This document shows, piece by piece, positions 46,607 to 59,079 of a DNA stretch of 59,079 nt. The notes beneath the pieces are model-generated. The model did no database searches, was not told the origin of the DNA, and saw nothing but the letters and a program-made list of their open reading frames with translations. The position numbers were made by a program, and so were the translations under genes. This DNA is from Pseudomonadota bacterium (GTDB lineage: Bacteria; Pseudomonadota; Gammaproteobacteria; Steroidobacterales; Steroidobacteraceae): NCBI GenBank assembly GCA_021808195.1, contig JAKBCE010000023.1:3690-62768 (forward strand). The letters run 5' to 3'. How positions within the stretch are numbered: position 1 is the stretch's first letter; each line of letters begins with the position of its first letter.

Positions 46607-46629
46607 TCAGTGCCAGAAAGCGCGCGAGA

Positions 46630-46732
46630 ACAACTTTCCTACGCCAGCATGAACTGGATCAGGTTCGAAGGGTCGCCGCGCTGCGCCCACAGGCGCCATC
46701 GGCCTCTCAGCCCCTTGGCGGGGCTCCCCCAG
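46630..46732 (-). promoter_or_regulatory. TPP riboswitch (THI element) of the thi operon
   Basis: On the minus strand the leader contains the diagnostic blocks in order: GGGGGAGC, then GGGGCTGAGA, a variable GC-rich P3 arm, GACCCTTCGAACCTGATC, and CAGTTCATGCTGGCGTAGG. These are the pyrimidine- and pyrophosphate-sensing helices of the TPP aptamer. It ends about 70 bases before the thiC ATG, leaving room for an expression platform (46562-46629). It should repress the operon when TPP is abundant. Confidence 0.97.
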
Positions 46733-46768
46733 TCACGGCGGTGACGATAGTACGGCCGCCTGTCCCGG

Positions 46769-54150: not shown

Positions 54151-54888
54151 TCACTCGAGATTGATGCGCACGGCCGCCGCCGCCGCGAGCGGTGCCAGCG
54201 TCATGCCGAAGACTGCCAGCGCGGCCAACAGGGTGAGCGGCGCGCCGTAGGCCTCGCCGCGGATTGCCAGCTGCGTCGCATGCGCGCCGAAAATCAGCAC
54301 CGGGATGGCCAGCGGCAGCGTCAGCAGCGACAGCAGAGCCCCGGCGCGCCGTACGCCGAGCGTCAGGGCCGCCCCGACCGCCCCGAGCAGGCTGAGCGTC
54401 ACCGTGCCGAGCGTCACCGAGGCCAGAATCCCGGGCAGCGCCCGACCCGGCACCCCGAGCGCCACGGCCGCGACGGGCGCCATGAGCGCAAGCGGCAGTC
54501 CGGTGAGCAGCCAGTGCGCGGCGGTCTTCGCCGAGAGCAGTCCGGTCAGCGCACGGCCCGAGAGCGCGTACTGCTCGAGCGTGCCGTCCTGGGCATCGTC
54601 GCGGAAGAGAAATTCGAGCGCAAGCAGCGAGGAGAGCAAGGCCGCCGCCCAGAGCACGCCCGAGGCGATGTGCCGCAAGCGGGTCAATTCAGGGGTAATG
54701 GCCAGCGGAAAGAGCGTGGTCACCATCGCAAAGAAGGCGAGCGGCTGCACGAGCTGGCTGGCCTTACGAAACGCAAGGCGAAGGTCTCGCTCGAGCATCA
54801 GGCGAGCCACCGCAAACGCCGACGGCGCACTGGGGTGATCGCGGTCCGCCCTCGCCAGTCCGGCCTGCAGGATATTGATCTCAGCCAA
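54151..54888 (-). CDS. ccmB: CcmB haem-release ABC permease
   Basis: 245 residues; about six hydrophobic helices, the LLALEFLFRDDAQDGTLEQ motif typical of CcmB, and LGVPGRALPGILASVTLGT. It pairs with CcmA to drive release of holo-CcmE. The frame overlaps ccmA by eight bases. Its first ~20 residues (AEINILQAGLARADRDHPSA) are longer than in many CcmB proteins. Confidence 0.93.
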   Translation of the reverse strand: MAEINILQAGLARADRDHPSAPSAFAVARLMLERDLRLAFRKASQLVQPLAFFAMVTTLFPLAITPELTRLRHIASGVLWAAALLSSLLALEFLFRDDAQDGTLEQYALSGRALTGLLSAKTAAHWLLTGLPLALMAPVAAVALGVPGRALPGILASVTLGTVTLSLLGAVGAALTLGVRRAGALLSLLTLPLAIPVLIFGAHATQLAIRGEAYGAPLTLLAALAVFGMTLAPLAAAAAVRINLE

Positions 54889-55567
54889 TGCCCAGCTCCA
54901 GTCGCCGCAGGCCCTGCTCGGACACTGCGAGTGGATGGTGCACCGCGGCCATGGCGAGCCCGCCGGCGGCGAGGTGTTCGTCTATCAACGTACCCACCAG
55001 TCGCTGCCCTTCGACATCCAGATTGGTGGTCGGTTCATCCAGCAGCCACAGGGGCACCGCCATCAGCAGCAGCCCCGCGAGTGCAATACGCCGCTTCTGA
55101 CCGGCCGAGAGGGTACGGACCGGACGATCCGCCCAACGCTGGGCACCGACCCGCTCGAGCGCCCCGTCGAGTTCGGCGCGACCGAAACGCCGTCGCACGC
55201 CGATCCAATAGTGCAGATTCTCCCGTCCGGTGAGTTCCCCTTTCAGCGGGGGCTCATGCCCGAGATAGGCCATCTCGGCGTGAAATGCGGGCAGATCCTC
55301 GTTCACGTCCCGCTCGCGCCAGCGGATTCGCCCGCCCTCGGGATAGGACATGCCGCACACGGTGCGCAGCAGGCTGGTCTTGCCGGCCCCGTTCGGACCG
55401 GTCAATTGCAGGCACTCCCCGCTCGTGACGGTAAAGCTGACCCCCCGCAAGACGTGACGCTCCCCGCGCCACAAATGCAGACTTTCGCCCCTCAGCGTCG
55501 CCTCGGACATGCCGGTGCTTGACCCACCATAGTCTTGATGGGCGGTAAGTCTCGCCAATTCGGACAT
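54881..55567 (-). CDS. ccmA: CcmA haem-release ABC ATPase
   Basis: 228 residues from the ATG at 55567, which has GGAG four bases upstream; an ATG at 55510 would give 209 residues, closer to the family norm, but with a weaker site. Walker A GPNGAGKTS, signature LSAGQKRRI, Walker B LWLLDEPTTNLD and H-loop VHHPL are all present. Cytoplasmic ATPase of CcmAB. First gene of the ccm operon, divergent from tRNA-Leu. Confidence 0.95.
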   Translation of the reverse strand: MSELARLTAHQDYGGSSTGMSEATLRGESLHLWRGERHVLRGVSFTVTSGECLQLTGPNGAGKTSLLRTVCGMSYPEGGRIRWRERDVNEDLPAFHAEMAYLGHEPPLKGELTGRENLHYWIGVRRRFGRAELDGALERVGAQRWADRPVRTLSAGQKRRIALAGLLLMAVPLWLLDEPTTNLDVEGQRLVGTLIDEHLAAGGLAMAAVHHPLAVSEQGLRRLELGIG

Positions 55568-55661: not shown

Positions 55662-55711
55662 GTCGCGCCTCCCAATGCCCGGGTGGCGAAATGGGTAGAC
55701 GCAAGGGACTT

Positions 55712-55968
55712 AACGAAGTTGAGCACCCGGGGCGGAAACGCCCGGTGTGAATGGGGTCAAAGTCGGTGGACCAGCAGCACGTTACGGTGGCTGCAATACC
55801 GAGCTAAGCCGCGCCATCCGTAGCGCGGAAAGTGTAGAGACTTGACGGCCCCTGCCTAAACCACGCAGCGTGTGCGCGGCACGGCAAAGGTAAAGTCCAG
55901 ACCCCAAATGCGTTCGCTCTCCGCTCCGGCGGTCCGCGAGCGCAGCGGCGTAAGCCGTAGCGGGTACG
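55712..55968 (+). ncRNA. Group I intron in tRNA-Leu(UAA)
   Basis: 257 nt with no ORF. It follows the exon U (CUU paired to GAG of the intron as P1, with a U-G at the splice site) and ends in G. P2 is a hairpin with a GAAA loop (about 55722-55748). P3 is GGGGTC at 55753-55758 with GACCCC at 55900-55905. The P7 strands are ACTT at 55840-55843 and AAGT at 55893-55896; the surrounding GTGTAGAGACTTGACGG and GGTAAAGTCC blocks match the conserved core of cyanobacterial tRNA-Leu introns. P9 is GCGTTCGC/GCGAGCGC (55910-55917 with 55936-55943) and a CGGC-GTAA-GCCG hairpin follows. This fits subgroup IC3, self-splicing. Confidence 0.93.
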
Positions 55969-55990
55969 AAAATCCCTCGGGGGTAACTCC

Positions 55991-56020
55991 GTGCCGGTTC
56001 GAGTCCGGCCCCGGGCACCA
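55991..56020 (+). other. Putative attachment site at the tRNA-Leu 3' end
   Basis: P4-type integrases usually recombine at tRNA 3' ends, and the integrase gene begins 211 bases downstream in the same direction. The T arm and acceptor strand with encoded CCA would be the left copy of the att repeat. The right copy is not in the window, so the core is not defined. Confidence 0.45.
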
Positions 56021-56040
56021 GGTGGCTTCAAACTCCACCT
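56020..56040 (+). terminator. Hairpin directly after tRNA-Leu
   Basis: AGGTGG and CCACCT can form a 6-bp stem with a 9-base loop immediately after the CCA end. There is no following T run, so it is either a weak terminator, a processing guide or an arm-type element of the att region. Confidence 0.3.
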
Positions 56041-56171
56041 TCCCTGCCCGTCCTCCAACATCCCAACATTGCGCTGAAACACTGGGAATCGTAGTGTTTC
56101 CGCATCGACATCTGCCGACGCCCGTCTACCGCCATCCAGGGGCATGATCACACGCCTGAGGTGCGAAAAGT

Positions 56172-56207
56172 GGGGTAAGGCGGGTCGGTTTGAGTCCCGG
56201 TTACCCC
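56172..56207. repeat. Inverted repeat before the integrase gene
   Basis: GGGGTAA at 56172-56178 and TTACCCC at 56201-56207 pair perfectly, with CGGG/CCCG continuing inside. The loop contains a CGGTTTGAGTCC segment close to the tRNA-Leu T-arm CGGTTCGAGTCC. It could be an operator or recombinase arm site, or a relic of another tRNA end. Confidence 0.45.
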
Positions 56208-56230
56208 AAAGGGCGGGTGGAGCAGCGTCA

Positions 56231-57496
56231 ATGTTGTCGGATGCGAAGATTCGGAGCCTGAGACCTAAGGAGAAGGCATACAAGGTTTATGACGATCGCG
56301 GGCTGTATATGGTGGTGAACCCGAACGGGTCGCGGTGGTGGCGGTTCAAGTACAAGTACGATGGGCGGGAGCGCGGGATTTCGCTCGGCGTGTATCCGGA
56401 TGTCACGCTGCAATATGCGCGGGAGCAGCTGCAGGAGGCCCGGCAGCTGCTTACTCGGGGGATCGACCCGAGTAAGCAGCGGCGGACGGTCAAGATCGCT
56501 AGGGCGGACACCTTCAAGGTGATTGCCGAGGAATGGCTGGAGATGCAGGCGGAACGGCTCGCGCCGATCACGATGACCAAGGCGCGGTGGATTCTGGGAT
56601 CGTTCGTCTACCCTCGCCTGGGATCGCGGCCGATCGCCGCGATCGCGGCACCTGAGGTGCTGGCCGTGCTGCGGCCGATCGAGAGCCGTGGGATGAACGA
56701 GACCACCCATCGGGCATTGCAGCGTTGCGGACAGATTTTCCGGTACGCCATAGCGACGGGTCGAGCGACGCGGGATATCACGTCCGACCTGCGGGGCGCT
56801 TTGGCGCCGGTCGTGGTGGAAAACCGGGCGGCTATCACGGCGCCGGCGAAGATCGGCGCCCTGCTCCGCGCCATCGATGACTACATCGGGCATCCGGCGA
56901 CGCTGATGGCCCTGAAGTTGTCCCCTCTCGTCTTTCTACGTCCCAGCGAGCTGCGGGCGGCGGAATGGCGGGTCCCGGCAGTGCGGATGAAGATGCGGGA
57001 GCGGCATATTGTTCCGCTGGCCTGCCAAGCGGTTGCGATCCTCCGAGATCTCCGCAGCGTGACCGGCAAGGGCAGATATCTCTTTCCGTCGCTACGGACC
57101 TCGGATAGGCCGATGTCCGTGAACACGGTGAATGCCGCCTTGCGACGCCTCGGCTATACGCGTGATGAAATGACGGGACACGGGTTTCGAGCCATGGCCT
57201 GCACGTGCCTCAATGAGCTCGGCTGGCATCCCAACCTGATCGAATTGCAGATGGCTCACGCGGAGCGGAATAAGGTCCGGGCTGCGTATAACCGGGCCGA
57301 GCGATTGGCGGAACGAAGAAAGATGATGCAAGCTTGGGCGGATTACCTCGATGGGCTGCGAGCAGGCCAGCGCGAATCGAGGGTCACGGAAGAAGCAGTT
57401 CGACGCGCGGAGGGAACCACGCCATCCGGGAACCAGGCACTAAGACCGAGTAATTGCCGAAAACCGGCCAAAAATGGGGCTACCGCCGTTTCTTAA
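56231..57496 (+). CDS. P4-type tyrosine integrase (DUF4102/phage integrase)
   Basis: 421 residues from the ATG at 56231 (GGAG eight bases upstream; the frame is open to 56144). N-terminal arm-binding domain MLSDAKIRSLRPKEKAYKVYDD and WRFKYKYDGRERGISLGVYP; central SAM-like core-binding domain; C-terminal catalytic domain with R237 (RPSELR), HGFR (H317, R320), H343 and the nucleophile Y353 (AAYNRAE). Between RPSELR and WRVPAVRMKM about 12 residues usually present in the family (a second EWxExDxxxxxW unit) are missing, so the enzyme may be impaired. C-terminal tail of ~45 residues is unrelated, polar. Integrates mobile islands at tRNA genes. Confidence 0.92.
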   Translation: MLSDAKIRSLRPKEKAYKVYDDRGLYMVVNPNGSRWWRFKYKYDGRERGISLGVYPDVTLQYAREQLQEARQLLTRGIDPSKQRRTVKIARADTFKVIAEEWLEMQAERLAPITMTKARWILGSFVYPRLGSRPIAAIAAPEVLAVLRPIESRGMNETTHRALQRCGQIFRYAIATGRATRDITSDLRGALAPVVVENRAAITAPAKIGALLRAIDDYIGHPATLMALKLSPLVFLRPSELRAAEWRVPAVRMKMRERHIVPLACQAVAILRDLRSVTGKGRYLFPSLRTSDRPMSVNTVNAALRRLGYTRDEMTGHGFRAMACTCLNELGWHPNLIELQMAHAERNKVRAAYNRAERLAERRKMMQAWADYLDGLRAGQRESRVTEEAVRRAEGTTPSGNQALRPSNCRKPAKNGATAVS

Positions 57497-57836: not shown

Positions 57837-58286
57837 ATGCGAACCGTATATCTGGATCTCTGCTGCCTCAATCGGCCGTTTGACGACCAGCACCAGGCTC
57901 GGGTGCGACTCGAGGCCGAGGCGGTCCTCGCGTTAATCGAACTGGTGAGACATGGCGGACTGAAATGGATCGGGAGCGATATTCTCGACCTGGAATCGAG
58001 TCGCCATCGGAATGCCGACCAGCGGCGAGGGGTCGAAGCGCTACTGAGTTGCGCCACCTCCAAAGTGGCGGCAGGAGAACGGGAGCGACAAAGGGGTCGA
58101 GACCTCGAAGCCGTGGGATTTGGCGCTTTCGACGCCCTGCACCTCGCTTGCGCCGAGAGTGGTGGTGCCGAGGTTCTATTGACCAGCGACGATCGGCTGC
58201 GAAACCGCGCCACCCGTGAAAAGGCCCGACTGGCGGTGCAGGTGGAAAATCCGGCAAAATGGTACTCAGAGGCGATTGCACCATGA
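57837..58286 (+). CDS. PIN-domain ribonuclease-like toxin
   Basis: 149 residues. PIN acidic residues: the first Asp in VYLDLCCLNRPFDD, DILDLE mid-protein, and FDALHLACAESGGAEVLLTSDDRL at the C-terminal half, giving the four-acid metal site. Likely a VapC-like RNase held in check by the upstream DUF433 protein. It overlaps the next gene by four bases (ATGA). N-terminal CCLNRPFDDQ is typical of PIN proteins found with DUF433 or with small third genes. Confidence 0.88.
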   Translation: MRTVYLDLCCLNRPFDDQHQARVRLEAEAVLALIELVRHGGLKWIGSDILDLESSRHRNADQRRGVEALLSCATSKVAAGERERQRGRDLEAVGFGAFDALHLACAESGGAEVLLTSDDRLRNRATREKARLAVQVENPAKWYSEAIAP

Positions 58287-58772: not shown

Positions 58773-59079
58773 CTAGTGGCCTGTAACAGCTGAATGTATA
58801 CCGAGGCGCTTACCGGTGTCGGAGTACTTCCACTTCACGGTGCGCGGGGCCTTGTTGTAGTGGCGGATGTAACGCATGAGCTCTTTCCTCAGATCGGCGA
58901 CCGAGGTGAACACGCCGCGGGCGATCACGTCGCGCTCGATCCTGCCGAACCACAGCTCCACCTGATTGAGCCAGGAGGAGTAGGTCGGAGTGAAGTGCAT
59001 CTGCACGTTGGGATGCTCGGTGAGGAAGGTCTTGACCAGTTCGGTCTTGTGCGAAGAGAGATTGTCCGCGATCACGTGG
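58773..59079 (-). CDS. IS630-family transposase, C-terminal part, 5' end outside window
   Basis: At least 102 codons, continuing past the window edge. VIADNLSSHKT contains the second catalytic Asp of the DDE domain and YSSWLNQVELWFGRIERDVI carries the Glu; FTSVADLRKELMRYIRHYNK follows, all typical of IS630. The C-terminal tail (GKRLGIHSAVTGH) is longer than the usual KWKY...RRI ending. Whether the full gene is intact cannot be judged. Confidence 0.9.
   Translation of the reverse strand, partial: HVIADNLSSHKTELVKTFLTEHPNVQMHFTPTYSSWLNQVELWFGRIERDVIARGVFTSVADLRKELMRYIRHYNKAPRTVKWKYSDTGKRLGIHSAVTGH

Follow-up and report, generated by a model that had tools for sequence, protein, structure and literature searches.

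The locus examined here raises the question of how a proteobacterium comes to carry a tRNA-Leu(UAA) gene that is split within its anticodon, whether the insert could remove itself from the transcript, and where it came from. In the window (the whole 59,079-nt stretch of DNA that was analysed) the interrupted gene is made up as follows.

55677..55711, plus strand: 5' exon of tRNA-Leu(UAA), last base U34
55712..55968, plus strand: group I intron of 257 nt, its final base the conserved terminal G
55969..56020, plus strand: 3' exon of tRNA-Leu(UAA) with encoded CCA

Joined, the exons give an 87-nt sequence that folds as tRNA-Leu(TAA) with a full acceptor stem, a long variable arm and the encoded CCA, and the insertion point lies between U34 and A35. 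An earlier note on this DNA had placed a 257-nt insert at 55712..55968, and these coordinates are exact; ARAGORN with introns allowed returns the identical exon/intron split. At default settings ARAGORN reports zero tRNAs across the whole window, as anticipated by the warning in the same note that a tRNA finder may miss the gene. The splice sites are set by two conserved features, the guide-containing sequence TTGAGCA and the last base G, each of which is invariant in 20/20 aligned introns. From this arrangement we infer that the GAG within TTGAGCA pairs with the exon sequence CUU, leaving a U34.G wobble at the 5' splice site. Eight mechanically called ORFs of at least 30 aa overlap the intron. 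The longest (55804-56283, minus strand, 159 aa, exiting through the tRNA) matches no Pfam family above cut-off, and the HNH endonuclease of related introns, searched against the whole window, finds its best match at E 0.15 outside the intron and none inside it. By the HNH search, and by Pfam on the longest overlapping ORF, the window intron has no endonuclease gene.

The insert contains recognisable group I elements from P1 through P9, and the P3, P7 and P9 pairings, GNRA-capped hairpins and terminal G previously listed for it are all present, the two GNRA loops being GAAA (L2) and GUAA (L9). Percentages below refer to the cells of an alignment of 20 introns.

55709..55723, plus strand: P1, putatively exon CUU with internal guide GAG (U34.G wobble) and AAC/GUU above (AAC/GUU 75.9% of cells paired)
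55724..55747, plus strand: P2 with the GAAA loop (79.3% of cells paired)
55753..55758, plus strand: 5' strand of P3, partner 55847-55852 (100% of cells paired; 2 pairs with two-sided changes)
55763..55802, plus strand: P4 (55763-55767/55798-55802) with P5 inside
55809..55828, plus strand: P6 (93.7% paired; two-sided changes in 5/6 pairs)
55839..55842, plus strand: 5' strand of P7, partner 55894-55897, the guanosine-binding helix (100% of cells paired)
55853..55886, plus strand: P8 with a CCUAA/ACGG element (outer part 95%, inner part 88.9% of cells paired)
55909..55944, plus strand: P9.1, peripheral hairpin (9/9 pairs with two-sided changes somewhere; 78.8% of cells paired)
55945..55958, plus strand: P9 with the GUAA loop (100% of cells paired; two-sided changes in 4/5 pairs)

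This structure was written by hand, including the P3/P7 pseudoknot and after removal of one conflicting pair, and was scored on 11 introns of the genus and nine from other Gammaproteobacteria/Pseudomonadales records. Overall 88.6% of 1170 cells are paired, compared with 78.2% in shuffled alignments (0/500 as high), and 35/63 pairs have changed on both sides across the 20 introns. Sliding the partners drops pairing to 33-41%, a comparison in which the structure, drawn on the window's own sequence, is favoured over the slid versions. The pseudoknot formed by P3 and P7 around P4-P6 and P8 is present, with P3, P4 and P7 each paired in 100% of cells. A U-A pair of P4 is replaced by G-C in 9/20 introns, while P7 is invariant in 20/20 and so supplies no covariation support of its own. 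Pairing is lowest (69-79% of cells) in the inner part of P1, P2, P5 (77.0%; inner P5 75.0%), the innermost pair of P6 (69.2%, no two-sided change) and P9.1. P3, P4, P6, P8 and P9 retain pairing via compensatory changes. P6 is also the site of an HNH endonuclease gene in some relatives, and the CCUAA/ACGG element of P8 resembles a GNRA-loop receptor. The minimum free energy of the intron is moderately unusual (z -2.67), and its thermodynamic stability is a weak signal.

A covariance model spanning the P3-P7 region was built from 22 introns, none of them from the host genus. Its sole match in the window up to E 10 lies at 55751-55902 (103.9 bits, E 1.8e-24, a rough value from a short calibration), and the same model finds no match in five intronless alleles of the genus. 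The window insert is therefore statistically homologous to other group I introns. Together with the rejoining of the exons, this match bears out the proposal of a group I intron in a proteobacterial tRNA-Leu(UAA) gene. The earlier note had also named a search with Rfam RF00028, counting the lack of a hit against the intron. That model gives no match to the window intron, either at the gathering score or at E<=1, a result that taken literally speaks against the proposal; the model is weak for this clade, as the sister intron L250 and the HNH-bearing intron L206 also score below the cut-off of 50 (37.3 and 18.3 bits). The gathering score is a library threshold, not a biological definition.

A further library model, for LOOT RNA (RF03000), matches 55853-55959 at 24.8 bits, below its gathering score of 46.4, with the similarity running from P8 through the 3'-terminal hairpins of the intron. 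The idea that RF03000 is a piece of group I introns was rejected, as LOOT matches with E values of 0.001 or better are absent from 20 intron-bearing genomes. Sub-threshold LOOT matches occur in the window intron, L250, L206 and L236, and likewise in L205, which has no intron core; a rescan of ten loci found the similarity in three introns and L205. Among a sample of 185 genomes, 12 have weak LOOT matches, with none above cut-off, and by a motif check of these 12 a single match, L206, lies within a tRNA-Leu intron, whereas the strongest, L205, does not. The LOOT consensus pattern occurs in 70 stretches of viral contigs, 0 of which are flagged with an intron core, and Rfam finds no match at gathering scores in the 16/70 of these loci that were scanned. 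We read the likeness, with LOOT known here from the RF03000 model alone, as a common module of receptor and GNRA hairpin, not as identity.

The cyanobacterial and plastid tRNA-Leu(UAA) intron likewise sits between U34 and A35. These IC3 introns share with the window intron the gene and the small size, whereas the window host is a proteobacterium; set beside them by description, the window intron may be called IC3-like by resemblance only. The introns of Azoarcus tRNA-Ile and Agrobacterium tRNA-Arg have the same general IC3-type architecture. They too are likened to the window intron by description, and they differ from it in tRNA and insertion context. Vepritskiy and colleagues are said to have described in 2002 a group I intron of about 230 nt in tRNA-Leu(UAA) of Pseudomonas isolate D0715, a gammaproteobacterial intron in the same gene as the window's, the likeness again being one of description. 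Group I introns in this tRNA-Leu(UAA) gene are described for cyanobacteria and plastids in two papers (PMC4476775, PMC4033280). Among Gammaproteobacteria, a putative group I intron splits tRNA-Leu-TAA of Beggiatoa sp. BOGUAY, and Ca. Thiomargarita nelsonii has a similar interrupted gene, the same tRNA as in the window in a different lineage; the paper states that it did not establish the structure or type of these tRNA introns (PMC4853749).

The wider distribution was surveyed with the pattern ACTTAAN{95,125}GTAGAGACTNNACGG, composed to avoid the cyanobacterial form. It occurs in at least 118 stretches of the genome collection and in 16 stretches of viral contigs. An exon-pairing test identifies 109/119 genomic matches among those listed and 9/16 viral ones as introns that share the window intron's insertion site in tRNA-Leu(UAA). 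The 17 failures among 135 matches listed (134 loci) comprise seven viral loci (L001, L006-L009, L015, L016) and ten genomic ones (L029, L032, L043, L053, L056, L062, L083, L102, L110, L120); L029, L083 and L120 are truncated by the locus end, and L032 and L102 are regained under a looser rule. The hosts among the matches listed include Alphaproteobacteria (52/130 tree rows), Betaproteobacteria, Gammaproteobacteria, Acidobacteriota, Bacteroidota, Clostridia and others. Judged by these sequences, group I introns in tRNA-Leu(UAA) are a common yet overlooked class in bacteria and phages. The view in the earlier note that the site characterises cyanobacteria and plastids does not survive the 109/119 matches in other bacteria, nor the cases already published for Beggiatoa and Thiomargarita (PMC4853749). 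Its description of the lineage as under-recognised stands in part, in that RF00028 misses the window copy and tRNAscan-SE 2.0, by the account of its own paper, is not built to find introns of this kind (PMC8450103).

Several smaller searches belong beside this survey. A pattern of the tRNA-Ile type retrieves 4 loci, and a cyanobacterial-type pattern has zero matches in viral contigs. Searched against phage records, the window gene matches the 3' end of ordinary tRNA-Leu genes and nothing else; against plasmids it finds exon-like pieces and two 76% matches in Cupriavidus. An interrupted tRNA-Leu(UAA) is near-identical in a viral contig (L011) and a Burkholderia genome (L067), and the viral contig has a relative of the integrase discussed below near this gene.

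An intron tree was computed, with P6 removed, on 77 of 164 trimmed rows, an author-chosen, non-redundant set from which eight introns lacking a P6 anchor were omitted and whose bootstrap had not settled. One clade (100/100) contains the genus, five gammaproteobacterial introns of HNH type and 9/11 other Gammaproteobacteria-labelled rows, together with some phage, Clostridia and Blastocatellia introns. The other holds the alphaproteobacterial, betaproteobacterial and most acidobacterial introns, plus L027 and L119. In this tree the window intron lies weakly beside L251 instead of L252.

The surroundings of the window gene place it between cytochrome c maturation genes and a presumed island; a distant riboswitch completes the list.

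46619-46740, minus strand: TPP riboswitch (69.3 bits)
54881..55567, minus strand: CcmA-like ABC ATPase (Pfam ABC_tran), followed by CcmB and other ccm genes
56144..57496, plus strand: tyrosine integrase at the 3' side of the tRNA (Arm-DNA-bind_3, Phage_int_M, Phage_integrase; start codon uncertain)
57837-58286, plus strand: PIN-domain ORF, presumed island
58773-59075, minus strand: piece of a DDE_3 transposase, presumed island

Two metagenome-assembled loci, L060 (YS5.bin55) and L102 (DBS2-1.bin82), align at 83-84% identity over 2.9 and 2.3 kb up to the end of the tRNA. Genome G037 was drawn into both the class sample around the genome of L018, a record titled Gammaproteobacteria, and the family sample around the genome of L060, which puts the host, on present indications, in Gammaproteobacteria in the sense of that taxonomy. 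Among 41 genomes of the genus, 8 contain the intron pattern, 5 the intact-gene pattern and 0 both; as the remaining 28/41 matched neither, the census is incomplete. A ccmA match is found in 14/14 loci tested (the 8 intron-bearing and 5 intact genus loci, and L236 of the family sample), which means that alleles with and without the intron share a single chromosomal site. One state change is enough for the intron pattern on a 16-row tree built from the ccm region. In it ten intron-bearing rows, the window among them, group together with good support (98/99), and the branch tying L250 to the remaining intron-bearing rows is weak (72/58). The single-change reading, which can explain the pattern, depends on this weak branch, and the change count leaves gain and loss indistinguishable. 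At its fixed site beside ccmA the intron of this gammaproteobacterial genus is vertically inherited, not freshly transferred. Recent horizontal transfer into the window organism, which the earlier note had entertained, is not supported, given the ccm tree and the synteny of the intron with sister species of the genus; an older acquisition through homing may have taken place.

One alternative holds that the wider group possessed the intron from the start and that the intronless sisters lost it, as opposed to a single gain in the genus. The change count on the ccm tree is compatible with either direction, and the gathering of most gammaproteobacterial introns in one clade (100/100), with L027 and L119 outside it, would suit an ancestral intron. 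The same clade, however, takes in introns from Clostridia, Blastocatellia and phages, and among 60 genomes sampled from the family the gene is intact in 36, interrupted in 2 and matched by neither pattern in 22, such that loss alone requires many events. We therefore consider an ancestral origin unlikely, albeit a serious contender.

Another alternative is that the intron was delivered by the integrative element whose integrase begins ~120 nt downstream of the tRNA. A related integrase follows the tRNA in 7/9 other intron-bearing genus loci (partial in L250 and L254), and two intronless loci, L256 and L257, have no integrase within ~1.4 kb after the tRNA; in the intron-bearing loci L236 and L248, which have no integrase match, there is little or no sequence beyond the tRNA. 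Against delivery by the element, 3/5 intronless loci also have the integrase, L238 and L255 with the same family downstream of the tRNA and L258 with a partial match (three of these ten matches thus being partial), and the integrases of the genus loci are 53-90% identical, while a 130-row intron tree recovers pairs of the ccm tree (L102-L249, L236-L060, L251/L253/L254). We regard delivery by the element as very improbable. The simplest reading is that intron and integrative element are independent, the 3' side of the genus tRNA-Leu being an integration hot spot with or without the intron. In genome G205, two contigs (L217/L218, C2 and C123) have exactly 127 nt in common, up to the 3' end of the tRNA, as if what lies beyond the tRNA differed across the population; a variable point of insertion would fit this. 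A search of the window for a duplicate of the tRNA 3' end, as an att site would leave, found none. By eye, the region 56171-56208, between tRNA and integrase, reads TGGGGTAA ... GTTACCCCA around a T-arm-like sequence and may be what is left of a tRNA.

A last alternative, that the insert no longer splices and that the tRNA gene is dead while another, intact tRNA-Leu(UAA) serves the cell, draws on genome G010, which has both forms of the gene, and strikes us as scarcely credible, given that the exons still form a perfect tRNA, the core elements are invariant, the variable pairs compensate, and the intact-gene pattern occurs in 0/8 intron-bearing genus genomes. Intronless copies were also sought in G007 and G205, the genomes of L060 and L102, with none found. 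Across 20 intron-bearing genomes from several phyla, the spliced window tRNA as query returned 14 full-length matches, 11 of them typed (CAG 5, CAA 4, UAG 1 and intact Leu(UAA) 1, the last in G010). A query taken from this genus may overlook intact copies in remote genomes, and G210, among the 20 searched, yielded no match. In G010 the intact gene is L219 and the interrupted one L070. The interrupted gene is probably the sole tRNA-Leu(UAA) of the window host.

The window intron, then, most likely excises itself, as its sequence and predicted fold suggest. Once transcribed, the intron would fold into the P3-P8 core with the guanosine site in P7, and exon CUU would pair with the guide GAG, placing U34 in the U.G wobble. 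An external guanosine would attack after U34, and the freed U34 would attack after the terminal G (55968), joining the tRNA halves at U34-A35. The lineage was probably once mobile through an HNH homing endonuclease encoded in P6; relatives point to an HNH-bearing ancestor, the gene having perhaps been lost from, or never present in, the window copy. We are highly confident of the reading as a whole, a self-splicing group I intron in tRNA-Leu(UAA) that is vertically inherited beside ccmA and comes from a probably once mobile HNH lineage, in which the anatomy, covariation, synteny, intronless alleles and endonuclease-bearing relatives are observed, and the splicing chemistry, the cell's dependence on splicing, and homing and its direction are what we infer.

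The link to HNH endonucleases comes from introns outside the genus. In locus L206 (genome G199) the tRNA-Leu(UAA) intron is 688 nt long, and its P6 contains an ORF on the opposite strand with Pfam matches to HNH and HNH_3. The protein encoded by this ORF finds matches in 7 of 369 gammaproteobacterial genomes. Four copies are full-length (L264-L267), all within P6 of tRNA-Leu(UAA) introns of 688-698 nt, and 3/4 of these introns are preceded by tRNA-Gly and tRNA-Cys genes. In G364 the copy is broken and lies in a shorter intron, in a tRNA that ARAGORN calls Phe and whose sequence reads Leu(UAA). In G367 (L269) a short piece of the HNH gene persists behind an intact tRNA-Leu(UAA), and in G349 the HNH match has no tRNA in the stretch examined.

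In viral contigs 241 stretches encode relatives of the HNH protein, of which 80 were analysed; many of the viral rows are near-identical, and the counts are not independent events. An intron core is present in 40/80, and ARAGORN links 39 of these 40 to an intron-bearing tRNA. The HNH gene lies inside the intron, in P6, in 11 loci (L273-L276, L282, L292, L299-L302, L319), typed by ARAGORN as 8 Leu (1 in sense direction) and 3 'Stop(tta)', and beside the intron-bearing tRNA in 28 (among L279-L336), typed as 18 Leu, 7 Phe, 2 Ser and 1 Lys, with anticodons perhaps miscalled. The 40 loci without a core include 25 in which the HNH gene is within 120 nt of an intact tRNA-Leu(UAA) (e.g. L277, L287, L303, L344); of the remainder, 1 lies beside Leu(tag), 8 are farther from any tRNA and 6 are tRNA-less. 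An HNH protein tree, from which 3 of 84 rows with stops were excluded, holds the gammaproteobacterial proteins together (SH-aLRT 91) with phage proteins around them; its deep branches are weak and leave the direction of movement unsettled.

One of the phage introns, a group I intron of 278 nt (covariance model E 8.6e-22), interrupts the tRNA-Leu(UAA) gene of an isolate, Agrobacterium phage Atu_ph07, in this position:

L263 2494-2855 (MF403008.1 about 112890-113251): interrupted tRNA-Leu(UAA) of Atu_ph07

The annotation of this stretch has 16 features with no tRNA among them. A literature search by title, with subscription journals outside its scope, found no report of phage tRNA-Leu introns, and a 2014 review states that every phage intron observed until then was in a protein-coding gene (PMC3984707).

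By analogy with their endonuclease-bearing relatives, such introns may move by HNH homing. Bonocora and Shub reportedly described in 2001 tRNA-fMet introns bearing an endonuclease, a precedent for the relatives here, in which the gene encodes an HNH domain and the tRNA is Leu(UAA). A broader reading, on which we find our judgement evenly divided, is that an HNH family dedicated to tRNA-Leu(UAA) circulates between phage tRNA arrays and gammaproteobacterial chromosomes, encoded within P6 of the intron or free-standing at most ~120 nt from the tRNA with or without an intron, the window intron being an endonuclease-free, vertically kept survivor.

The prevalence of these introns corrects the picture of tRNA-Leu(UAA) group I introns as confined to cyanobacteria and plastids. 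They are invisible to the default tRNA finder, and the window copy to RF00028 as well, with the consequence that genomes can seem to lack an essential tRNA. In the genus, alleles with and without the intron form a clean pair at a single locus, and the association with HNH genes and phages offers a concrete, testable route by which such introns may spread.
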